Shown: positions 14,444 through 33,548 of the stretch, piece by piece
Layout: each line of letters opens with the position of its first letter
Position numbering within the stretch: the stretch's first letter is position 1
Origin: Egibacteraceae bacterium
GTDB taxonomy: Bacteria > Actinomycetota > Nitriliruptoria > Euzebyales > Egibacteraceae
Assembly (NCBI GenBank): GCA_035540635.1
Contig: DATLGH010000018.1
Span: 1-34,271 of the forward strand
DNA: 34,271 bases
Direction of reading: 5' to 3'
Made by a program: the position numbers and the translations under genes
Notes under the pieces: model-generated
Databases searched by the model: none
What the model was told of the DNA's origin: nothing
What the model saw: only the letters and a program-made list of their open reading frames with translations

Positions 14444-14668
14444 ATGGTCAGCGTGCACAACGTCGCCGAGGCCAAGGCGCAGCTGTCTCGCCTGCTCGAT
14501 GCCGCGCTCGCGGGGGAGGAGGTCATCCTCGCCCGCGCGGGCAGGCCCCTCGTGCGGCTCGTGCCGCTCCAGCCGCCACCGAGTCGGGAGATCGGCTTCC
14601 TGCCGTTGACGATGCCCGACGACCGGTTCGACCCACTGGAGGGCGATGATCTCGAGCGGTGGTCGTGA
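14444..14668 (+). CDS. Phd/YefM-family antitoxin
   Basis: The 74-aa protein 'MVSVHNVAEAKAQLSRLLDAALAGEEVILARAGRPLVRLVPL' is a typical Phd/YefM N-terminal DNA-binding fold, followed by a short acidic tail (DDRFDPLEGDDLERWS) that would wrap the toxin. The PIN-domain gene follows with a four-base GTGA overlap. Family proteins bind the toxin and repress their own promoter. No Shine-Dalgarno is present and a -10-like element sits seven bases upstream, consistent with leaderless translation. The frame is intact. Confidence 0.88.
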   Translation: MVSVHNVAEAKAQLSRLLDAALAGEEVILARAGRPLVRLVPLQPPPSREIGFLPLTMPDDRFDPLEGDDLERWS

Positions 14669-15057
14669 CCACCCTCGTGCTCGACACCCACGCCTATGTC
14701 TGGGCCGTCACCGCGCCGGATCGGCTGTCGGCGCCAGCGCGTGAGGCGGTCACGGATCCCGCCAACGAGCTTCTGGTGTCGGCTGCCACCGTCTGGGAGA
14801 TGGCGATCAAGCACCAAGCGGGGCGGTGGCCAGAAGCAGAGGTCCTGTTGCGGCAGCACGACGCCCTCACGCTCCGCCTGGGGGCCGAGGAGCGTCCGAT
14901 CACCGCGGCGGACGCCGTACGCGCCGGTGGGCTCTCCTGGGCGCACCGCGATCCCTTCGACCGCATGCTGGCCGCACAGGCTCTCCTGTCGCAGGCGACG
15001 CTGGTGACCAAGGACCCCGGCTTCGCCGCGCTCGGCGGCCTGCCGATCCTGTGGTGA
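14665..15057 (+). CDS. PIN-domain ribonuclease toxin (VapC-like)
   Basis: Starting at GTG 14665, which overlaps the antitoxin TGA, the protein of about 130 aa has the PIN-domain acidic residues: D in 'LVLDTHAYVW', E in 'SAATVWEMAIKH', D in 'HRDPFDRMLAAQA' and D in 'LVTKDPGFAAL'. The HxDPFDRxLxAQA block is diagnostic of the Phd-associated PIN subfamily. PIN toxins cleave RNA with magnesium. The in-frame GTG at 14659 is an alternative start. The operon appears intact and functional. Confidence 0.9.
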   Translation: MTTLVLDTHAYVWAVTAPDRLSAPAREAVTDPANELLVSAATVWEMAIKHQAGRWPEAEVLLRQHDALTLRLGAEERPITAADAVRAGGLSWAHRDPFDRMLAAQALLSQATLVTKDPGFAALGGLPILW

Positions 15058-18016: not shown

Positions 18017-18421
18017 TCAGGTCGCTTCGGGTTCGTCGGGTACATGCACCTGGCAGGGCGGCTCGGCCCGGGCCAGGCGGTGATCGGTCGTGACGAGGGG
18101 ACATTTACGCTCGGCGGCCAGCGCGACGTAGAGACCATCCAGGAAGTGGACGCGCTCCTGCAGTTCCAGCGCTCGAGTCATGTGAGCGCCCGTGGGAGGG
18201 ACCAGCTCCTGCTCCAGGTCGTCGACCTCGAGTAGCGCCGCCTGGGCCACCTGATCGTCGATTTCGTCGGCACGCCGCAATCGGGCGATGGCGGAGAGCA
18301 CCTCGGCGGGTTGATGCGCGGGGGCGCAGACCACCTGGCCGCGCAGCTGCTCGAGAACCCAGTGCTTGGCCGACTGATCGAGCACGACGTCCACCATGGC
18401 CGCGGCATCGAGGACGATCAT
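18017..18421 (-). CDS. PIN-domain toxin (VapC family)
   Basis: The 134-aa minus-strand protein starts at the ATG at 18419-18421, overlapping the antitoxin stop as ATGA. PIN acidic residues are seen in 'MIVLDAAAMVDVVL', 'PAEVLSAIARL', 'VHFLDGLYVALAAE' and 'LVTTDHRLARA'. The pattern is that of VapC ribonucleases, which cut tRNA or rRNA under toxin release. It converges with the DprA gene, whose stop lies about 55 bases away. The frame is intact. Confidence 0.88.
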   Translation of the reverse strand: MIVLDAAAMVDVVLDQSAKHWVLEQLRGQVVCAPAHQPAEVLSAIARLRRADEIDDQVAQAALLEVDDLEQELVPPTGAHMTRALELQERVHFLDGLYVALAAERKCPLVTTDHRLARAEPPCQVHVPDEPEAT

Positions 18422-22820: not shown

Positions 22821-24080
22821 ATGGACGTTTCACTCAGGCTCGAACACGGGCTGCTGGCAGTGGAGGACGCTCACGAGGTGCACGCCATGGTGGCGGTCAC
22901 CGCACCCGCGGCGCCCGTTGACCGCGACCGGCCGCCGCTGCGCGTCGCGCTCGTGCTGGACCGGTCGGGCTCGATGGCCGGCGGGCCGCTGGAGGTGGTC
23001 AAGCGCTGCGCGGCGTTCCTCGTCGAGCGCCTCCAGCCCCACGACGAGCTCGCCCTCGTGGCCTACGACGACGAGGTCGACCTGCTCGCTGCCCTCGCGC
23101 CGGTGCAGGCCAGCGTGCTGGGCGAGGCGATCAGCGCCATCCACCCCGGCGGGATGACGAACCTGTCCGGCGGCTGGCTCAAGGGCGTGGAGGAGCTGGG
23201 TCGCCGCAACGACGGCCTGCGCCGGGTGCTGCTGCTCACCGACGGGCTGGCCAACCAGGGCCTGACCGAACCTGACACGCTCGTCGCACTCGCCCAACGC
23301 CAAAGCGCCCAGGGCGTGGCGACCACCACGCTGGGCTTCGGCGACGGGTTCAACGAGGAGCTGCTGACGGCGATGGCCGACGCCGGGCGTGGCACGGCGC
23401 ACTTCATCGCCTCGCCCGAGGACGCGCCGGCCGCGTTCGCCGCCGAGTTCAGCGACCTGGTGTCGCTGGTGGCCCAGAACGTCAGCGTCGAGATCCGCCC
23501 CACCGACCAGGTAGAGGTCGTGGCCGTGCTCAACGACCATCCGTCCACACCGGTGGCCGGCGGAGTGCAGGTGCTCGCCGGCGACGCCTACGCCGGCCAG
23601 CAGCTGCGGGTGGTGTTCAAGCTGGCGTTGCCCAGCCTCGCCGCCCTCGGTCCCGCCAAGGTCGCCGACGTCGTGCTGCGTTTCGTCAGCGTCGGTGACG
23701 AGGTCGCCGCCCACGAGGTCACCTACCCGCTGTTCGTCAACCTCGTGTCCGCCGACGAGGCCGCCACCGCCGTGCCCGACGCCGAGGTTGTCGAGGAGGT
23801 CAGCGTCCTGCTCGCCGCCCGCGCCGTCGAGGACGCGCGCCACCGCGCCGAGCAGGGCGACCTCGACGGAGCCCGCGACGTGCTGCACGACGCCGCCGAG
23901 GCATTGCGGGGATCCGCGGCCGGCTCCGCGCGCGCCGACGAGCTGCTGGCCAGCGCCGAGGAGCTCACCGCCGTGCACACCCACCTGGCGTCGGGGGCGT
24001 TCTCGCCGATGAGCAGCAAGGCCCTGCACTACAACAGCCGCACCATGCGCCGCAAGCGCGGCGGCGGCCCGCGACCATGA
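22821..24080 (+). CDS. VWA-domain protein
   Basis: The 419-aa protein has a vWA domain with the complete metal-ion-dependent adhesion site: 'VALVLDRSGSMAGGPL' (DxSxS), the threonine in 'GGMTNLSGGW' and the aspartate in 'VLLLTDGLANQG'. The segment after it (VEIRPTDQVEVVAVLNDHPS; LRVVFKLALPSLAALG) is beta-rich, and the C-terminal part is a helical region (RHRAEQGDLDGARDVLHDAAEAL). There is no signal peptide, so it is probably cytosolic, as with CoxE/chelatase-associated VWA proteins. The partner is not evident. A strong ribosome site precedes the ATG. The frame is intact. Confidence 0.85.
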   Translation: MDVSLRLEHGLLAVEDAHEVHAMVAVTAPAAPVDRDRPPLRVALVLDRSGSMAGGPLEVVKRCAAFLVERLQPHDELALVAYDDEVDLLAALAPVQASVLGEAISAIHPGGMTNLSGGWLKGVEELGRRNDGLRRVLLLTDGLANQGLTEPDTLVALAQRQSAQGVATTTLGFGDGFNEELLTAMADAGRGTAHFIASPEDAPAAFAAEFSDLVSLVAQNVSVEIRPTDQVEVVAVLNDHPSTPVAGGVQVLAGDAYAGQQLRVVFKLALPSLAALGPAKVADVVLRFVSVGDEVAAHEVTYPLFVNLVSADEAATAVPDAEVVEEVSVLLAARAVEDARHRAEQGDLDGARDVLHDAAEALRGSAAGSARADELLASAEELTAVHTHLASGAFSPMSSKALHYNSRTMRRKRGGGPRP

Positions 24081-24333: not shown

Positions 24334-24349
24334 TTGCCGGCCCCGGCAA
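24334..24349 (+). terminator. short GC-rich hairpin between the small ORF and the HD gene
   Basis: TTGCCGGCCCCGGCAA forms a six- to seven-base stem with a two- to four-base loop, 40 bases after the small ORF. There is no T run, so termination is uncertain; attenuation or mRNA stability are alternatives. Confidence 0.3.
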
Positions 24350-24390
24350 GCCCGCGACCGGTGTCCGGCGTCAATCGGAAAGGCAGGTCT

Positions 24391-25275
24391 ATGGAAGAGG
24401 TCCCCCTCGTCCAGCCGTCGCAGCGGTTCGTGGACGCCGTCGGGTTCGCCGCCGAGATCCACCGAAGCCAGTCCCGCAAGGGCAGCCGGATCCCATACGT
24501 GTCGTACCTGCTCGCCGTCGCGAGCCTCGTGCTGGAGGACGGCGGGGACGAGAACGAGGCCATCGCCGGCCTGCTGCACGACACCCTGGAGGACAGCGGC
24601 CAGCCGATGCCCGCGATGATCGGGCGGATCCGCTCGGCGTTTGGTGACCGGGTCGGTGACCTCGTCGAGGCGTGCACCGACGTGGACGTCGACCGGCCCG
24701 CGGAGCGCTCGTCGGCAGACTGGCGCGCGCGCAAGCAGCACACCATCGACGCGCTCGCCAAGGCCGACCGGGCCGCCGCGCGGGTCATGCTCGCCGACAA
24801 GCTGCACAACCTGCGGTCGCTGCCCACCGACCTGGAGTTGGACGGGCAGTCGGTGTGGCAGCGGTTCAACGCCGGGCGCGACGATCAGCTGTGGTACTAC
24901 GCCGGGCTGGCGGAGGCCGCCCGGGAGCGCCACCCCGGCGGCCGCCTCGCCCACGAGCTGGTCCGCAGCCGTCGAGAGCCTCCGGCAAGCCGCAGATCGG
25001 TGAACCCTGCGCAGGTGGCCGCATTGAAGCCCCAGCCGCAGGACTCCGTCCCGCTGGTCTGGAGGCTTGGGCTGTACGAGAAGCCGGCCGCGGTCGTGAG
25101 CGGCTTCGACACGCCGGTGGAGTACGGCGTCGTCGAGCACGAGTTCGCCTATGCGCGCCCCGACGACTACCGCACCGTGTGTGGTCGCTTCGGGCACACG
25201 GCGATCCAGGAAGGCCTGGAGTACACGGCGTCGGCCTGGGCACGGCGCGTGAGCCTCCACGCGGGCGGCTGCTGA
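24391..25275 (+). CDS. HD-domain protein, ppGpp hydrolase-like, with extra C-terminal region
   Basis: Residues 1-190 match single-domain RelA/SpoT-type HD hydrolases (MESH1-like): 'RFVDAVGFAAEIHRSQSRKGSRIPYVSYLLAVASLVLEDGG', the HD pair in 'AIAGLLHDTLEDSGQP' and 'VMLADKLHNLRSLPTDLE'. Such enzymes remove pyrophosphate from (p)ppGpp. A further tail of about 95 aa (LVWRLGLYEKPAAVVSGFDTPVEYGVVEHEFAYARPDDYRTVCGRFGH, then TAIQEGLEYTASAW) has no family I recognise. Its TGA overlaps the next ATG by one base. No synthetase domain is present. Confidence 0.8.
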   Translation: MEEVPLVQPSQRFVDAVGFAAEIHRSQSRKGSRIPYVSYLLAVASLVLEDGGDENEAIAGLLHDTLEDSGQPMPAMIGRIRSAFGDRVGDLVEACTDVDVDRPAERSSADWRARKQHTIDALAKADRAAARVMLADKLHNLRSLPTDLELDGQSVWQRFNAGRDDQLWYYAGLAEAARERHPGGRLAHELVRSRREPPASRRSVNPAQVAALKPQPQDSVPLVWRLGLYEKPAAVVSGFDTPVEYGVVEHEFAYARPDDYRTVCGRFGHTAIQEGLEYTASAWARRVSLHAGGC

Positions 25276-26528
25276 TGCGAGGGCGCATCCACCGCGGGAG
25301 CAAGGAGATCGGCGGCAGCTGTGTGGAGCTGGAGGCGTCCGACGGCGGCCGGGTGGTGCTGGACCTCGGGCGGCCCCTGGCCGCGGGCTGGGACGACGAC
25401 GTCGCGCTGCCCGCTGTGGCGGGCCTGACCGAGCCCGACGGGTCGTTGTTGGGGGTGCTGATCTCCCATGCGCACCTGGACCACTACGGGCTGGTGGCCG
25501 GCATCTCGACAGAGGTCCCGGTGTACATCGGCGCGGAAGCCGAGGCGCTGCTTCATGCGGCGGCGTTCTTCTCGCCGGTGTCCGCCTCGGTGCACGCTGC
25601 CGGCCATCTGCGCCACCGCGAGCCGTTCACGCTCGGGCCGTTCACGGTCACGCCCTACCTCGCTGACCACTCGGCGTTCGACGCCTACTCGCTGCTGGTG
25701 GAGGCAGACGGGGCGCGCGTGTTCTACACCGGTGACCTGCGCGCGCACGGGCGCAAGGCGGCGATGTTCGAGCGGCTGCTGGCCGACCCGCCCGCCGGCG
25801 TCGACGTGCTGGTCATGGAGGGCACGCACGTGCGCGCGGACGCCGTCAACGACGAGGCGACCTTCGCCACCGAGGCCGACCTCGAGGAGCGCTTCGTCGA
25901 GCTCAGCCGCGACACCCAGGGCGCGGTCGTCGTGTTGGGGTCCGCGCAGAACCTCGACCGGCTTGTCACCGTGTACCGGGCGGCCAAGCGCACCGGGCGT
26001 TCCTGCGTCGTGGACCTGTACGGCGCGACGGTCGCCGCCGCGACCCGCGCGACGATCCCCCAGCCCGGCCACGAGGTGCTGCGCGTGTACGTGCCCAACC
26101 GCCAGCGCATCAGGGTGAAGGAGGCCGGCGAGTTCTCCCGCGTCGCTGACATCAAGGCGCAGCGGGTCTTCCCCGAGGAGCTCGCCGCCGACCCGGGCCG
26201 GTGGCTGTTCCATGTGCCCTCCTCCACCGTGGGGGAGCTGATCCGCGCGGGGGTCCTCGACGGGCGCGGCGTCGTGGTGTGGTCGCTGTGGCACGGCTAC
26301 CTGGTCGAGCCCTCGGGGGTGCGGCTGCGCGGGCTGCTCGACGAGCACGGCGTTGAGCTGGTCCATCTGCACACCTCGGGGCACGCCTCGGTGCCCGACC
26401 TCAAGCGTCTGGTGGACGCGCTTCACCCGGCGCGGGTGGTGCCGATGCACTCGGAGGCGGGTGGGCGCTTCGGCGAGCTGTTCCCGCGGGTCGAGCTGCG
26501 CGACGACGGGGAGTGGTGGGACGTATGA
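25275..26528 (+). CDS. MBL-fold/beta-CASP-like hydrolase, RNase J-related
   Basis: The 417-aa protein has metallo-beta-lactamase signature 'LISHAHLDHYGL' (HxHxDH), 'YLADHSAFDAYSLLVEADGARVFYTGDLRAHGRKAAMFERLL' and a later His in 'VHLHTSGHASVPDLKRLVDALHPARVVPMHSEAG', the C-terminal histidine motifs of the RNase J/exonuclease branch. It probably acts on RNA or on a phosphodiester metabolite. It is translationally coupled both ways: one base with the HD gene and ATGA with the following fusion gene. The frame is intact. Confidence 0.82.
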   Translation: MRGRIHRGSKEIGGSCVELEASDGGRVVLDLGRPLAAGWDDDVALPAVAGLTEPDGSLLGVLISHAHLDHYGLVAGISTEVPVYIGAEAEALLHAAAFFSPVSASVHAAGHLRHREPFTLGPFTVTPYLADHSAFDAYSLLVEADGARVFYTGDLRAHGRKAAMFERLLADPPAGVDVLVMEGTHVRADAVNDEATFATEADLEERFVELSRDTQGAVVVLGSAQNLDRLVTVYRAAKRTGRSCVVDLYGATVAAATRATIPQPGHEVLRVYVPNRQRIRVKEAGEFSRVADIKAQRVFPEELAADPGRWLFHVPSSTVGELIRAGVLDGRGVVVWSLWHGYLVEPSGVRLRGLLDEHGVELVHLHTSGHASVPDLKRLVDALHPARVVPMHSEAGGRFGELFPRVELRDDGEWWDV

Positions 26529-27074
26529 GCAGCAGCTCTGGGCGGATCGACCGGGTCGCCGGGACGTTGCTGGGCGTGGCCGCCGGCGACGCCCTCGGCG
26601 GACAGCCTCGCCGAGTACTACCGGCGGAGCGCCGGCCAGCCACCGCTGGCTGTGGCCCTGCGCGACGACCCGGGCGTGATGGTCGGCAACGTCGCGGGTC
26701 TTCCCGCAGCCGGGATCGACGCGGTCGTGTCGCTGTGCCGGGTCGGCCGCACCTTCGCTCCGCCTGACGTCGAACACCACGAGTTGCACCTCATCGACAC
26801 CCCGGGCGCCAACACCCACCTGCGCCACGTCGTGGCCGACACCGCAGCGGGCGTCCTCGCCATACGCGACGAGGGGAAGCGGGTGTACCTGCACTGCGCC
26901 GCCGGGCAGAGCCGCACCCCCGCCGTCGCCGCGGCCTACCTGCACCTGCGCCTGGGGATCTCCGGCGAGGAGGCGCTGCGCCGCGTCGGCGCCGCGCTGC
27001 GCCACTACCAGCACAACCACGAGCTCATCGACGTGGTGCGGTCGCTGCCCGAGCGGCCCGACTCCGGGAGCTGA
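26525..27074 (+). pseudogene. ADP-ribosylglycohydrolase/dual-specificity phosphatase fusion, middle missing
   Basis: The ATG at 26525 starts 'RIDRVAGTLLGVAAGDALG', the first helix and active-site start of DraG-type ADP-ribosylglycohydrolases. At about 26600 the sequence jumps and changes frame to 'DSLAEYYRRSAGQPPLAVALRDDPGVMVGNVAGLPAAGIDAVVSLCRVG', then 'VYLHCAAGQSRTPAVAAAYLHLRL'. That is the C-terminal dual-specificity phosphatase domain with the complete HCxxGxxR catalytic loop. In full-length homologues, as I know them, about 250 residues of glycohydrolase lie between. The phosphatase domain is intact from about 26640 and could be expressed only from an internal start. Either a true deletion or a collapsed assembly. 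Confidence 0.7.
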
Positions 27075-27166: not shown

Positions 27167-28222
27167 TTGCTGCAGGAGCGGATCGATGAGGATGACGCCG
27201 AGAGCGAGGACGCGTTTACCTGGTTCGCCAGCGGCACCGACGTCCCGGCAGACGCCCCCACCGGGGTGGTCTTCGCCCTCGCCCGGGAGGCCGGGGACCT
27301 GGCGTGGGCCGGCGAGGCCGAGGCTGCCGAAGCGGCCTTCGACCGCGCCGCCGCGCTCGCGGTGTCGTCGGGTGAAGCAGCCCTTCTCCCCGAAGTGGCG
27401 GACGTCGTGGCCACGACCCTTGCGCCGCTCGACAGCGCACGGTCGCTCGCGCTGTTGCGCCGCTGGCAGGGACCGGTCGACGCTCTCGACCAGGCCGAAC
27501 TGTCGGCGCTGCTGCTCGACGTGCGTGCACACGTCGCCGTGAGCGCCTCATTGCACGGCGTGGCGGCGATGCTGCTGGACGAAGCGCGTTCGGCGTGGAC
27601 GGTGGCAGGGGAGGACCGCCGAGCCGCGGAGGTGACCGATCGCCTCGGTTGTGCGCTGCGGGCCCTGAGGCGTGGCGAGGAGGCGCTGGCCCGCCACGCC
27701 GAAGCGCGGGCGGTCTTCGAATCGCTCGAGGCGCCCGATGCCGCCGCCATCAGCGCGGAGCTGGCCGGTGACTGCTGCACCGAGCTCGGGCGGCACGACG
27801 ACGCGTTGGGGCACTACGGCTACGCGTACACGCGCTACCGGCAGGTGGTCTCGCCGCGCGACACTGCACGGGCCCGCGACCGTATGGGCATGGCCCTCAA
27901 TCACCTCGGCCGCCTCGCGGAGTCCGAGCAGGCCCACGCCGAGGCCATCGCGGCGTTCGCAAAGCTCGGGGAGCTCGAGCTCGAGGCCGAGGCGCGCAAG
28001 AACCTCGGGTGGACGCTCGCCGACCTCGGCCGCTTCAGCGAGGCGCGGGCCGCGCTGTCAGACGCCGTGGCGGTCCTCGACGCTGCCGGTTGGATCGGTG
28101 CGGCAGACGAGGCGCGCGAAGCGCTCGACCGCCTTCCCGTACTCCACCATCATCCGCAAGGCTCGGATAACGCTTCGCTGCGTGGAGTACAGTTGAGTGC
28201 TAGGACTTCTTATGGAAACTGA
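27167..28222 (+). CDS. TPR-repeat protein
   Basis: The 351-aa protein is translated from TTG 27167, preceded by GGAGGAGGAG. It is built of helical tetratricopeptide repeats, clearest from residue 150: 'TDRLGCALRALRRGEEALARHAEARAVFESLEAPDAAA', 'AGDCCTELGRHDDALGHYGYAYTRYRQV', 'MGMALNHLGRLAESEQAHAEAIAAFAKLG' and 'NLGWTLADLGRFSEARAALSDAVAVLDAAG'. The N-terminal region is acidic. No enzymatic domain is present, so it is a protein-interaction scaffold. The last 20 residues lose the repeat pattern. Similar proteins sit beside metabolic or signalling genes; no partner is obvious here. Confidence 0.8.
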   Translation: MLQERIDEDDAESEDAFTWFASGTDVPADAPTGVVFALAREAGDLAWAGEAEAAEAAFDRAAALAVSSGEAALLPEVADVVATTLAPLDSARSLALLRRWQGPVDALDQAELSALLLDVRAHVAVSASLHGVAAMLLDEARSAWTVAGEDRRAAEVTDRLGCALRALRRGEEALARHAEARAVFESLEAPDAAAISAELAGDCCTELGRHDDALGHYGYAYTRYRQVVSPRDTARARDRMGMALNHLGRLAESEQAHAEAIAAFAKLGELELEAEARKNLGWTLADLGRFSEARAALSDAVAVLDAAGWIGAADEAREALDRLPVLHHHPQGSDNASLRGVQLSARTSYGN

Positions 28223-28938: not shown

Positions 28939-31005
28939 CTACCTTCCCTGATCTTCAATTGTGTAGCCGAGGAGTGAAGCCCCTTCTGCGATTCGCCGGA
29001 GCGGGTCGCCTGCGAGCATCTCGAGCGGTTGTGCTCCATCCCAGACCCATGTGCGAAGCGATTGTTGATCTACAATCACCTCTGCTTGGCCGTGGCGGGT
29101 GGCGCCCCAGACTCGCCCGATGGTGGGCAGTACGTCGCCGGTGCTGCGTCGGCGGTAACGGTGCAGCACAGAGCCGTACCGGTCAACCCACTCGGGGACG
29201 TGGTCGTCCTGCCAGCCGTTCCTCCAACTCCAGGAATCATCGGCCACGATGCTGAGGAAGGTCACCGCCATCTCCGCGAAGGATGGTCCGCTATGGCGCT
29301 CAGCCTCGGGCAGGCCGGCGATCGCGCCGACGATGGCGGCCGCCTGCTCTGGGTCGCCGCCGTTGGCGAGATGGTTCCATATGCCACGCCAGACCCATCG
29401 TTCACTGCCGCTTTGGGCCAGGACCCGTAGAGACCCGGGACGGTTCATCGAGACGAGCGGCTGGGTCCAGGGTGGATTGAGTCGAGCATCCTTCTGATGC
29501 TGCAGTTGAATCATGTCGTAGAAGCCGTAAAGCGGCCGGCTTTCCACGACCCTTCCGAAGGACATCGGCCACCGTCGGGAGAGCGCCGCTGCCAGCCGCC
29601 AGGTGAGGAGTTCCAACTCGGTGTCACGTGGCTCCGGCAGTGCCGAGTGGATGTCCCACTCCGGTGTCGCTCGATCGTCAAGGACATGGACTTCGACGTC
29701 CACCATGGCTGCCACGCGACGGAGCAGCTGCAGCTTCTGGGTGAAGTCCGGTGTCCAGCGGCGAGGTATGGGAATGCCGACAGCCGCTGCGACAGCCTGT
29801 CGCTCGAGGCGGGCGTGGTCGAACCATGGGTCAAGTGGCGGAGTGCTGCGGATGAAGTGGCGGTACAGGACGGCTTGGGCGAGCGCGCGGCGGTAGTAGC
29901 GTCCCTGGCCACCTCTGGCGACCTTGAGCTCGACCGCCAACGGTGTCGTGCCACGGCAGAGGAGGGCATCGAGGTAGCGCGCCTGGGCGTTGTGACCCCA
30001 AAGCGTGGGGAACTGGCTCCCCCTGGCCACCCGACCATCACCGAGGACGAGTCCCGCCTGCATAACGTCGGGTGCGATGAGGCCTTTAAGGAGGCGGGCC
30101 TCCATGGTGTGCTCGTCGACGACTGGCCGGCCGCCGCTGAAGCGGTGAGCGATGGGCGCGCCCGGTACATCAGCGGGCCTGAAACGACGGAGTAAGGCGC
30201 GGATGAGCTCGGCAGCTTCTGCGACGCTCAACGCCTCAGGGAGGGTCTGGTCGATAAGGGAAACGGTGACGCTCGGCTGTCCGAAGACCTTGGTGAAGGC
30301 TTGGCGCTGCGGGCCATCGCCAGACTTGCCAGGCTTTCCCACAGTCAGCGTCCCTGTCTGAGCGCCGATGACTCCGATCTCAAGGCCGTCGATGCGCAAC
30401 GCCCAACGGTCAGGGACGGCGTCGCTGATCTCGGAGGGGAACAGGTGCAGCGACGGGTCACCGACCGCGGCCACGATTGCCGCAGCAAGGGCCGTGGGTT
30501 GTGCGGTCAGCCGTGGTAGCAGCAGTGTTTGCACCCACCGGCTGATGAGTGGGTCCTCCGGCATCCAGGTGGGGGCGGGTGCCATGTCGTCAGCCCAACC
30601 CTCATCATCGCCTCGCTGGTACCAGATGTGGGCGAAGACTCCGTGTCCGTGGACGGAGTCGCGCAAGCTCCGCATCGCCTGGTCGACTTCGGAGGGCTCC
30701 TTACCGGGCAAGGGACGATCGATCAGCACGTTGACTCGAGAGGCGTCAACGGTCTGGGCCCCCGGAGGGGGCGCGACCTCGTCGAGGACCGTCTCCCGCA
30801 CCGCCAGCGCGTCGAGCAGTGCACCGCACGTGGTTGCCAAGTCGGCATCGCCGGCAACTGCGGTGGCTACCTGCTCTCGCCAGCGCAGTCGCCAGACGTC
30901 TCGCCCGATCGAAAGTGTCCTGTCCGTTTCCGTGCGCAGTGACCGGAGATCGGTTTGGGGATCGGACTTCAAGCGGGCACGTAAGGCCTCCGCCGGTGAC
31001 GTCAC
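28939..31005 (-). CDS. large protein with PD-(D/E)XK nuclease-like core, unknown family
   Basis: This 688-aa minus-strand protein starts at GTG 31003-31005. Residues about 300-385 show a PD-(D/E)XK pattern: a helix with E303 (MEARLLKGL), 'TLWGHNAQARYLDALL' with D346, 'PLAVELKVARGG' with E359 and K361, then 'RRALAQAVLYRHF' with Q377. The N-terminal 290 residues and the C-terminal 300 (PLYGFYDMIQLQHQKDARLNPPW; ADDSWSWRNGWQDDHVPEW) match nothing I know. The GTG overlaps the TGA of the preceding small gene, so the two are coupled. The frame is intact over 2 kb, and composition looks lower in GC than the flanks, suggesting acquisition. It may be a conflict-system nuclease. The fold and function are inferred from motifs only. 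Confidence 0.7.
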   Translation of the reverse strand: MTSPAEALRARLKSDPQTDLRSLRTETDRTLSIGRDVWRLRWREQVATAVAGDADLATTCGALLDALAVRETVLDEVAPPPGAQTVDASRVNVLIDRPLPGKEPSEVDQAMRSLRDSVHGHGVFAHIWYQRGDDEGWADDMAPAPTWMPEDPLISRWVQTLLLPRLTAQPTALAAAIVAAVGDPSLHLFPSEISDAVPDRWALRIDGLEIGVIGAQTGTLTVGKPGKSGDGPQRQAFTKVFGQPSVTVSLIDQTLPEALSVAEAAELIRALLRRFRPADVPGAPIAHRFSGGRPVVDEHTMEARLLKGLIAPDVMQAGLVLGDGRVARGSQFPTLWGHNAQARYLDALLCRGTTPLAVELKVARGGQGRYYRRALAQAVLYRHFIRSTPPLDPWFDHARLERQAVAAAVGIPIPRRWTPDFTQKLQLLRRVAAMVDVEVHVLDDRATPEWDIHSALPEPRDTELELLTWRLAAALSRRWPMSFGRVVESRPLYGFYDMIQLQHQKDARLNPPWTQPLVSMNRPGSLRVLAQSGSERWVWRGIWNHLANGGDPEQAAAIVGAIAGLPEAERHSGPSFAEMAVTFLSIVADDSWSWRNGWQDDHVPEWVDRYGSVLHRYRRRSTGDVLPTIGRVWGATRHGQAEVIVDQQSLRTWVWDGAQPLEMLAGDPLRRIAEGASLLGYTIEDQGR

Positions 31006-31211
31006 CGGCTCGCCTCGCTGTCGCCGTAGCGCAAGGCGTACTCCTCGCTGGTGATCACCGGATCAAGGAACAGGCAGCTGTCAATCGGACAGAAGCGATC
31101 GGGCGGTCGCAGAAGCTTCTCCCACACTTCATTGACTGTCCTTCCTGCGGCCTGCTGTGTCGGTCGAGTGAGCGATTCCTTGGTAGCCGTCGTTCCCGGC
31201 GGGAGCGACAT
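31002..31211 (-). CDS. 69-aa partner of the nuclease-like protein
   Basis: From the ATG at 31209-31211 the product is 'MSLPPGTTATKESLTRPTQQ', then 'AAGRTVNEVWEKLLRPPDRF' and 'CPIDSCLFLDPVITSEEYAL', ending 'RYGDSEASR'. It has a C-x4-C pair, probably not a full zinc site alone. It overlaps the GTG of the 688-aa gene (GTGA). Longer starts upstream are possible, but the residues there look non-coding. No family recognised. Size and coupling suggest a small regulatory or specificity subunit. Confidence 0.6.
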   Translation of the reverse strand: MSLPPGTTATKESLTRPTQQAAGRTVNEVWEKLLRPPDRFCPIDSCLFLDPVITSEEYALRYGDSEASR

Positions 31212-31349
31212 GAACGACCCGAACCCCGGTCCCGCGGCGAGTAACCCTGCCCTGCTCCAGCTGGCAGCAGGGGCGAAGTCGCAAGACTTGCGGGGTGCGG
31301 CGCGGTGTTCATCCCCCAACAGCTTCTCGGCACCGGCGTCTTATGGTCA

Positions 31350-31560
31350 TCACGCGCGAAGGGAGGGCCGATAACGCGGTGTGGGGATCGGCTGCCCCTG
31401 TCGCGGGCGACCGCAAGCCAGGCCTCTTTCGCGACGAGAACCTCGGCATGTGCTCCTGGGGCGTCGAACCGAATGCAGAGCACGCTTCGAGGTCGGGGAT
31501 GTCGGCGATGTAGCCGCCATCCTCCTCGCTGTAGAAGACGTTGATGTGGTAGTCGCTCAC
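31350..31560 (-). CDS. HicB-family antitoxin, two frameshifts
   Basis: GTG 31558-31560 starts 'MSDYHINVFYSEEDGGYIADIPDLEACSAFGSTPQE', the partial RNase-H fold of HicB antitoxins. The frame is then lost once near 31450 and again in the run of four G (plus-strand C4 at 31395-31398). Following the frames gives 'AHAEVLVAKEAWLAVARDR' and then 'GQPIPTPRYRPSLRA' with TGA at 31350-31352, the expected HicB end. The antitoxin would be about 70 aa if corrected. It overlaps the upstream HicA-like remnant by GTGA. Confidence 0.75.
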
Positions 31561-31683
31561 GGGAGATCCTCTCGCAGGAGATCGTACCGTTCGAGCAACC
31601 GGAGAAACTGCCGCACCTGATAGGGCTTGGCCTGGCTGCGGACCTCCTGCAGGCGCCCGCGCAAGCTCTTCCGGCGCCTGCTC
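31557..31683 (-). pseudogene. HicA-like toxin remnant
   Basis: The frame that ends at 31557 reads 'YQVRQFLRLLERYDLLREDLP'. Its first half resembles the N-terminal helix of HicA toxins and its end resembles a HicA C-terminus. The double-stranded-RNA-binding core with the catalytic histidine is missing. The GTGA overlap with HicB supports the assignment. The frame stays open upstream to 31757, but there it runs antisense to the helicase fragment. Short and therefore uncertain. Confidence 0.4.
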
Positions 31684-32358
31684 GAGGGCCTCGATGTGCC
31701 CGACGTCGACACCGTTCTGCTGCTGCCCCCACGCAGAGCGCGACGGTGTTCCACCAACAGCTCGGCCGCAGCCTGCGTCGCGCCCCCGGCAAGGCGGTGC
31801 TCACGGTCCTGGACCTCATCGGCGCGCAGCGCCGCGAGTTCCGCTTCGTTCGACCTGCGCTACCGGGCGTTGACCGGGTCGTCGCGCAAGGGGCTCGTCG
31901 ACCAGGTCGCCGGCGGGTTCCCGTACCTGCCGTCGGGCTGCGCCCTGGTGCTCGACCGCGTCGCGCAGCAGATCGTGCTCGACAACGTACGCGCGCAAGT
32001 GGAGCTGCGCCGGCCGGCGCTCGTGGCCGACGTGCGCTCTCACGGCGACCTCGGCCTCGCCGGCTACCTGCGCGAGGCAGACCGCGAGCTCGCCGACATC
32101 TACCGGCGACCCTCCGAGTCGTGGACCGCGCTGCGCCGCGACGCCGGGCTGCCCACCCCGCCGCCCGTGGCCGGCGAGCAGGACCTCCTCAAGCGCGCCC
32201 GCACGGTGGCCCATATCGACGACCCCGAAACGCGCCGAGCTGTACACCCGCCTGCTCGCCGACCACGCGCCGGCCTACGCGGCGCTGTGCGACCGCGTGC
32301 AGCGGCTCGCCCGGATGTCGTTTTGGACGCTGTGGCCCGGCGCCGGCGGCTTCACCGG
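31684..32358 (+). pseudogene. DUF3427-type DEAD/DEAH helicase fragment
   Basis: Motifs appear across frames: 'EGLDVPDVDTVLLLPP', then after a C5 run (31736-31740) 'TQSATVFHQQLGRSLRRAPGKAVLTVLDLIGAQRREFRF' (motifs V-VI), then 'DLRYRALTG', 'GGFPYLPSGCALVLDRVAQQIVLDNVR' and 'WTALRRDAGLP', then 'ELYTRLLADHAPAYAALCDRVQRLARMSFWTLWPG'. This is the C-terminal helicase lobe and start of the DUF3427 region. The ATPase half, any PLD nuclease domain and the C-terminus are absent. A TTCGTTCG duplication near 31850 causes one frame change. It is a fragment cut at both ends. Confidence 0.7.
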
Positions 32359-33548
32359 CTCCGACGCGGTCGAACGTGTCCTTCAGCCGCAGCCGCTGCG
32401 GCTCGTGGAGGCGCAGCATGGCCCGCCCGACGTCGGTGCGGAAACGGTCGCGCGCCGGTGCGTCGCCGGTGGCGAGCTCACCGAGCGCATCGGCGGCGAT
32501 GCGCTCGAGCTGCTCGGGGGAGCGCTCGAGGAGCACGGCGAGCCAGGCCGCGGCCAGGTCGGCGCCCCTGCCCTTGCGGGCGAGCTGGCCGTCGATCCAC
32601 ACGCCGAGCGCCGCACGTCGCCCCTGTGGGTCGTCGTCGAGGCACCGGGCCACCTCCTCACGCAGCACGGTCGGCCAGCGGTCGGCGGGCTCGTCGTTGA
32701 GCACGGCCAGGAGGTCGGGCTGCGCGCCGCCGAGCCGGTCCAGGACGGCGGCGGCCTGTGCCGCGACCGGCGGGGGCGGGGCGGGCCCGATCCCGAGCGC
32801 CTGGGTCGCCGCGAGGCTTGCACGGGCCGCGTCGCCGGCGCGCTCGTAGGCCAGCGCGAGGTTGGCCTTCGCCATCGCGTACTCGTCCGGGCGCACCCCG
32901 CGGGGGTGCGCCGCAGCCGCGGCCTGGAACGCCGCCGCGGCCGCGCCGGCGCCGCCGCCCGCGAGGTGGGCCAGTCCGAGGGTGTTGGCCGCCGCCCCGA
33001 GCCCCGGCTGATCCCCACTGCGCCCCGCGAGCGCGACCGCCCGCTCCAGCGTCTCGACGGCGACAGGGACGTCGCCCGCCGCGAGCTGGGCGCCGCCGAG
33101 CTCCCGGGCGGCGGCGGCAGCACGCCCCGTCAGCCCCTGCCCGTCGAAGCGGGCCAACGCCTCCGCGAACGCGTCGGGGGCTTCCCGGGGGCGGCCCTGC
33201 TCCGCGAGCACGAGGCCGGTTGTGGAGAGCTGCACCCTCTTCGGCGACGAGGCGCTCCGCGGCGAAGGTCGCCCCGGCCGCGCTGAACAACTCGGCGGCC
33301 TCGGACTGGCGGCCACAGGCGCGCAGCGCCGCGCCGAGGACGTTCTCCGCCTTCGCGCGCTCGACCGGCAGCGGACCGGACAGCCGCACCGCCACCCGCA
33401 GGGCCGCCGCCGCCTCCGCAGCCCTGCCCGCACCGAGCAGCATGGAGCCGAGGTGGAACTGGGTGGTCGCGTGCTGCACGGGGTAGCGGTCGGGGGTGTA
33501 GGAGCGCAGCCGCCGGCGCAGCTCCTCGAGGACGGCGTGCCCTTCCAC
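32189..33548 (-). CDS. TPR-repeat protein, frameshifted, 3' end uncertain
   Basis: From GTG 33546-33548 the protein reads 'VEGHAVLEELRRRLRSYTPDRYPVQHATTQFHLGSMLLGAGRAAEAAAALRVAVRL', typical of TPR helices. It loses frame near 33222 (LHNRG region), then continues 'GLVLAEQGRPREAPDAFAEALARFDGQGLTGRA', 'NTLGLAHLAGGGAGAAAAAFQAAAAAHPRG' and 'KANLALAYERAGDAARASLAATQALGIG', followed by a non-repeat helical C-terminal domain (VLRE, then ELATGDAPARDRFRTDVGRAMLRLHEPQRLRLKDTFDRV). Below about 32358 the frame is antisense to the helicase fragment, so the native end was probably lost there. It lies nine bases after the small upstream gene and is likely co-transcribed. Confidence 0.65.

Follow-up and report, generated by a model that had tools for sequence, protein, structure and literature searches.

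A predicted PD-(D/E)XK nuclease fused to TY-Chap2 in an Egibacteraceae genome, from an uncatalogued family linked to ADP-ribosylglycohydrolase genes

Does the region between positions 28,939 and 31,211 of an Egibacteraceae contig encode a self-contained pair of genes, and what might the larger of the two products do? The region lies in the window, that is, the whole stretch of 34,271 nucleotides analysed here, and an earlier note had read it as an acquired, conflict-related module composed of a 69-aa protein and a 688-aa PD-(D/E)XK-like nuclease. The larger gene and its parts are as follows (positions refer to the window).

28939..31005, minus strand: nuclease-TY-Chap2 fusion gene, 688 aa, GTG start (open frame, coding composition, homologues of residues 21-443)
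30181..31005, minus strand: N-terminal alpha/beta region, residues 1-275 (conserved in homologues; confident model)
29677..30114, minus strand: PD-(D/E)XK-like nuclease core, residues 298-443, with E302, D346, E359-x-K361 and Q377 (invariant residues and AlphaFold element order)
29035..29604, minus strand: TY-Chap2 domain, residues 468-657 (PF22553; aligns with stand-alone TY-Chap2 proteins)

The 688-aa frame proved to be a genuine, intact gene. As the earlier note had it, the 2-kb frame is uninterrupted end to end, with all 688 codons open, and it is coding-like throughout: GC content per codon position is about 0.7/0.5/0.75 in each of its segments, and codon log-odds are positive in this frame alone among the frames of that strand. 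The lower GC content noted at the locus was also borne out (0.65-0.67, against 0.72-0.79 in the flanks).

The claim of a PD-(D/E)XK-type nuclease held on two counts, invariant residues and predicted element order. In 12-row alignments, E298, H299, E302, D346, E359, K361, G368, Y370, R372, Q377, A378, Y381, R382 and W394 are invariant; D346, E359, K361 and Q377 of the catalytic pattern first proposed are among them, while its first acid is E302 and not E303. The AlphaFold model of residues 1-443 (mean pLDDT 79.8) contains a helix at 298-306, strands at 343-351 and 354-360 and a helix at 367-386, followed by a strand at 406-412, a helix at 419-434 and a strand at 437-442. We looked for the arrangement typical of the superfamily, which has an acid in the first helix, D in a strand, E/D-x-K in the strand after it and Q in the helix that comes next, and in the model E302, D346, E359-x-K361 and Q377 occupy the expected helices and strands. 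The structural check proposed earlier thus returned the PD-(D/E)XK order of elements (pTM 0.81) but no significant fold match: Foldseek placed Can2 and Card1 at or near the top, with OkrAI and R2 endonuclease also high, the best E-value being 1.3e-3 with TM-scores <0.25, and the search against solved structures gave no match with E <1e-3. We consider it likely that residues 298-443 adopt a PD-(D/E)XK nuclease fold, and a protein with this pattern would be expected to cut DNA or RNA.

Can2 and Card1, which are CARF-nucleases, were the top-ranked nuclease matches in both fold searches, and they share with the 688-aa protein an alpha/beta region, a sensor in Can2 and Card1, preceding a PD-(D/E)XK core; however, the match is non-significant and of low TM-score, and no CARF domain was identified in the 688-aa protein. 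Its N-terminal region (residues 1-275) carries residues conserved in homologues (D28, R39, D65, W201, R204 and G207), and possibly acts as a sensor or binds nucleic acid. The window protein had no profile match to any known PD-(D/E)XK family in Pfam, PADLOC, NCBIfam, PHROGs or PDB sequences; the core of one homologue (L037) gave weak profile matches to Cas4 (E 0.0017) and NERD (E 0.16). Weak matches of the 688-aa protein to DUF2019, beta-lactamase and clamp-loader were discarded as chance or as arising from low-confidence helices.

The remaining 600 residues or so had been thought to match no known family, which proved wrong: residues 468-657 match TY-Chap2 (PF22553; E 7e-5, profile positions 3-194 of 223) and align with stand-alone members. 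The 23.2 bits of this match fall short of the family cut-off of 27 bits, which is exceeded by the 27.9 bits obtained in the genome scan. A model that takes in this part was examined for the duplicated TY-chaperone fold of the family; its confidence here is low, with pLDDT mostly <60, because its input held no homologues of this part. Unlike the other members seen, which are separate frames of 240-300 aa, TY-Chap2 here forms the C-terminal part of a nuclease; the fusion was found in this single protein and in none of the other homologues found. Weak TY-Chap2 matches in 596-codon frames of two genomes (G619 and G766) were rejected, as these frames lie across secretion-type genes that are read in a different frame. 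Two stand-alone TY-Chap2 genes from two genera of one actinobacterial family (L002, L003) adjoin nrdR, an unexpectedly housekeeping-like location. Upstream of another stand-alone TY-Chap2 gene (L014, 81-1998) lies what is probably another nuclease, a protein of 305 aa that has no Pfam match and carries the motif D-x-x-L / E-L-K-V.

Judged from sequence, residues 1-443 fall in a nuclease family absent from Pfam, NCBIfam, PHROGs and PADLOC. We scanned genomes from some 85,000 species with a DNA pattern for the helix that follows E-x-K (GxY[YF]RxxLxQAxxYR), which returned 22 loci; 13 were confirmed by tblastn as relatives of the region up to residue 443 (residues 21-443 covered). Their sources are Geodermatophilus, Blastococcus (3), Modestobacter, Klenkia, Nocardioides and an Acidimicrobiaceae bacterium, together with Rhodopirellula, a Phycisphaerales, a Myxococcales, Kuenenia and a Bacillota bacterium, so that the homologues span Actinomycetota, Planctomycetota, Myxococcales and Bacillota. 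Two copies are broken or partial (Klenkia, L036; Phycisphaerales, L032); the remaining 11 measure 384-436 aa over the nuclease part, and TY-Chap2 follows in none of them. Since the helix pattern is narrow, the family is probably larger than 13 loci.

Nothing resembling the 688-aa protein over its full length was found in its class (66 genomes, 65 besides its own), among 396 genomes drawn from the phylum, in plasmids or in phages. Single-sequence scans of genome contigs, viral contigs, plasmids and phages gave no relatives; a family profile found no member in viral contigs or in a further 295 genomes sampled from the phylum; and plasmids and phages searched with other family members as query gave none. 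Viral contigs likewise gave none by alignment with invented variants (used for pattern steering only) or by the first pattern scan. Because it is absent from the 65 other genomes of the class, the 688-aa gene was probably acquired, as had been suggested.

We next turn to the smaller frame. Its features are the following.

31008..31205, minus strand: the "69-aa gene", a fossil of the C-terminal end of a REase-ARP gene (50% identity with L047:2718-3773 over residues 284-349 of the latter)
31180..31263, minus strand: second piece of the same fossil, in a different frame (matches residues 266-292 of the L047 protein)

The L047 protein is an intact REase-ARP of 351 aa (PF22558, E 4e-46). Since the small ORF matches residues 284-349 of it and residues 266-292 are matched in another frame, the ORF is a truncated, frameshifted remnant; its homology is confined to the tail and the catalytic part is missing (the presumed catalytic D185 and E203-x-K205 fall within the lost portion), and what had been read as a 69-aa gene is therefore a fossil, the tail end of another nuclease gene. 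A self-contained conflict module, with the 69-aa protein as antitoxin, immunity or adaptor partner of the nuclease, could draw on the GTGA overlap, where the GTG start of the 688-codon frame shares letters with the TGA of the preceding ORF, and on sequence homologous to the ORF that adjoins the nuclease in three other genomes. That homologous sequence is, however, the C-terminal end of a nuclease of 351-384 aa (L047, L048, L045), the only kind of homology that the ORF has; we rejected an antitoxin or partner role on this ground. The small gene was not found free beside the nuclease, and 8 other intact homologues have no such adjoining gene. A two-gene module is accordingly hardly credible: the coupling described in the earlier note stands as an overlap, but not as a pair of genes, and the conservation of the pair expected across genomes failed to appear.

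REase-ARP is nonetheless close company for the nuclease. An intact REase-ARP gene adjoins it in L047 and L048, and the two are joined in Modestobacter (L045); REase-ARP is a PD-(D/E)XK nuclease of the systems in which we place the 688-aa protein. It is, in contrast, a separate family that has a motif of its own (in L047, D185 and E203-x-K205), and a search at E up to 1 gave no match of the 688-aa protein to PF22558. The fused frame of Modestobacter sp. VKM Ac-2982 (L045, 179-2665) runs for 828 codons without a break, so that REase-ARP and the nuclease stand as two nuclease domains in a single polypeptide.

The systems in question, ADP-ribose counter-conflict systems centred on ADP-ribosylglycohydrolase (ARG), were predicted in 2022, their defence role being itself a prediction (PMC9503650). 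The text of that paper lists TY-Chap2 and REases among their parts, and does not name a metallo-beta-lactamase or the 688-aa nuclease family. The "previously unknown rapidly evolving REase" described there is likelier to be PF22558 than the present family, to judge by what PF22558 is called and by the fact that the gene next to the nuclease matches it.

We analyzed neighbourhoods of 14-20 kb around most homologues (one contig measured 5.8 kb) by ORF clustering and tblastn. An ARG-phosphatase gene lies within 7 kb of the nuclease in 5 of the 13 homologous loci (L050-L054). With about 15 ARG matches across the 13 genomes, about 0.03 would be expected at this distance by chance (our own arithmetic from the ARG counts of these genomes), against the five observed, three of which come from one family and hence are not all independent. 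At the family level the nuclease thus shows the ARG linkage expected for an ARG-centred system. In four genomes the sole ARG copy lies within ~3 kb of the nuclease; at 8 of the 13 loci there is none within the 6-20 kb read. REase-ARP occurs near the nuclease in three loci (L048, L049, L054), HD genes in L049 and L050, NrtR and Macro in L054, and WYL in L055; other neighbourhoods contain helicases or a KAP NTPase. By their sequence matches, the neighbours other than the metallo-beta-lactamase and the nuclease family itself are mostly parts of ARG-centred systems: ARG-phosphatase, HD phosphatase, Nudix/WYL, Macro, REase and TY-Chap2, as given in PMC9503650, surround the family, and some of them do so in the window. 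In the Acidimicrobiaceae genome (L053, 6705-10082), a 1125-aa protein with Cas4-like nuclease, RNase H and SF1 helicase parts, resembling MkoA, directly follows the nuclease.

The commonest immediate neighbour is a metallo-beta-lactamase, found in 5 of the 13 loci (L052, L053, L055, L056, L058). This gene, which goes unmentioned in PMC9503650, together with the helicases and KAP NTPase nearby, would fit a repair or restriction module built around an RNase J-like metallo-beta-lactamase and helicases, in which ARG is near through shared defence islands and not through a common pathway. Yet ARG-phosphatase, REase-ARP, Macro, Nudix and WYL genes recur too, the only ARG of a genome is found beside the nuclease four times over, and ARG adjoins a metallo-beta-lactamase also in a genome of the same class that has no nuclease (G040). 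We regard this explanation as rather unlikely, and favour a role of the nuclease within ARG-centred systems. In G040, on contig 6 (L072, 3005-5446), a start fragment of the metallo-beta-lactamase is followed by ARG and then by a complete metallo-beta-lactamase, reflecting either a duplication or an insertion inside the gene.

The window holds a similar set of genes, 2-5 kb from the nuclease on the plus strand, and further remnants beyond the nuclease gene.

24334..25275, plus strand: HD_4 domain protein (PF13328, E 3e-22; 40-46% identical to the HD genes of L049 and L050)
25275..26528, plus strand: metallo-beta-lactamase, RNase J-like (44-58% identical to the nuclease-adjoining gene in L052, L053 and L056)
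26525..26599, plus strand: ADP-ribosylglycohydrolase (ARG), first 25 residues, core deleted
26652..27074, plus strand: dual-specificity (rhodanese-superfamily) phosphatase, the remaining half of ARG-phosphatase (PF00782; 84% identical to the intact G001 protein)
31309..31560, minus strand: HicB-like antitoxin remnant, frameshifted
31683..31959, plus strand: DUF3427-like SF2 helicase gene fragment (74% identity to a stretch of a helicase-like frame of 1024 codons that is intact in G001)

The nuclease lies on the opposite strand, 1.9 kb from the HD-to-phosphatase set, and the metallo-beta-lactamase of G040 is 73% identical to the one in the window. A genome of the same genus (G001) has an intact ARG-phosphatase frame of 493 codons. 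The window matches one end of this frame at 78% and the other at 86%, and lacks about 880 bp in between, out of frame and at a short shared word. The sole intact ARG of the source genome lies on another contig, and no Nudix or WYL regulator was identified near the 688-aa gene in the window. The toxin-antitoxin remnant and helicase fragment reported alongside are real, the former with 89% DNA identity to a same-genus genome over 31297-31451. In contrast to an intact ARG-centred system, the ARG core and REase-ARP are thus broken here, and the nuclease-TY-Chap2, metallo-beta-lactamase, HD and phosphatase frames are open. The assembly is a draft in which single frameshifts may be errors; the 880-bp deletion and the REase-ARP truncation are not easily explained so. 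In G001 (contig 126; L083, 252-512), the intact ARG-phosphatase has next to it an HD gene that has itself been shortened internally, with no metallo-beta-lactamase after it; what has been lost from the set differs between the relatives.

Other genes were observed in the window. A von Willebrand factor A domain protein is encoded just upstream of the HD gene (22821-24080, plus strand), and vWA proteins are listed among ARG-system chaperones. TPR-repeat proteins lie on both sides of the nuclease on opposite strands (27167-28222, plus; 32189-33433, minus), and there are two PIN-domain genes, possible VapC-type toxins (14659-15057, plus; 18017-18421, minus).

Such decay could mean that the 688-aa gene is itself a non-functional leftover, an intact-looking frame that no longer has a role in a crumbling island: the neighbouring ARG, REase-ARP, HicB and helicase are all broken, and the Klenkia and Phycisphaerales copies of the nuclease are broken or partial. 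Against this, every codon is open, the invariant catalytic residues are all kept and codon composition is uniform, which makes a leftover improbable; that reading would in any case bear on the present state of the window genome and not on the function of the family.

Domain make-up, the conserved pattern and ARG linkage together uphold the nuclease and conflict readings of the earlier note and not its two-gene unit, whose place is taken by a wider context of ARG, metallo-beta-lactamase, HD and Nudix/WYL genes. On balance we favour, with some reserve, the view that the 688-aa protein serves an ARG-centred ADP-ribose conflict system as an effector nuclease. Its predicted order is an N-terminal alpha/beta region, a PD-(D/E)XK core and a C-terminal TY-Chap2, a chaperone-like domain that would bind peptides. 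Following the proposal in PMC9503650, ARG and phosphatase of intact systems would strip ADP-ribose off phage-modified macromolecules, and Nudix or WYL regulators would turn the operon on. Nucleases such as the present family and REase-ARP might then cut nucleic acid as a second line, and the fused TY-Chap2 would probably bind a modified or phage-derived protein and thereby target or release the nuclease. The least secure part of this proposal, and a doubtful one, is that TY-Chap2 senses modified proteins. We offer only tentatively that TY-Chap2 gates the nuclease by recognising ADP-ribosylated or phage-derived proteins, which would make a sensor and effector against phage ADP-ribosylation in one protein; that the family is typically coupled to ARG and metallo-beta-lactamase, a part of the same reading, is similarly speculative.

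Besides a metallo-beta-lactamase that recurs, the predicted ADP-ribose conflict systems gain an uncatalogued nuclease family, thinly spread over several phyla. How ARG systems lose parts is exemplified by the deletion in ARG and by the REase-ARP fossil, and the nuclease-TY-Chap2 fusion would permit a direct test of the binding targets of TY-Chap2 and of its role as a trigger.
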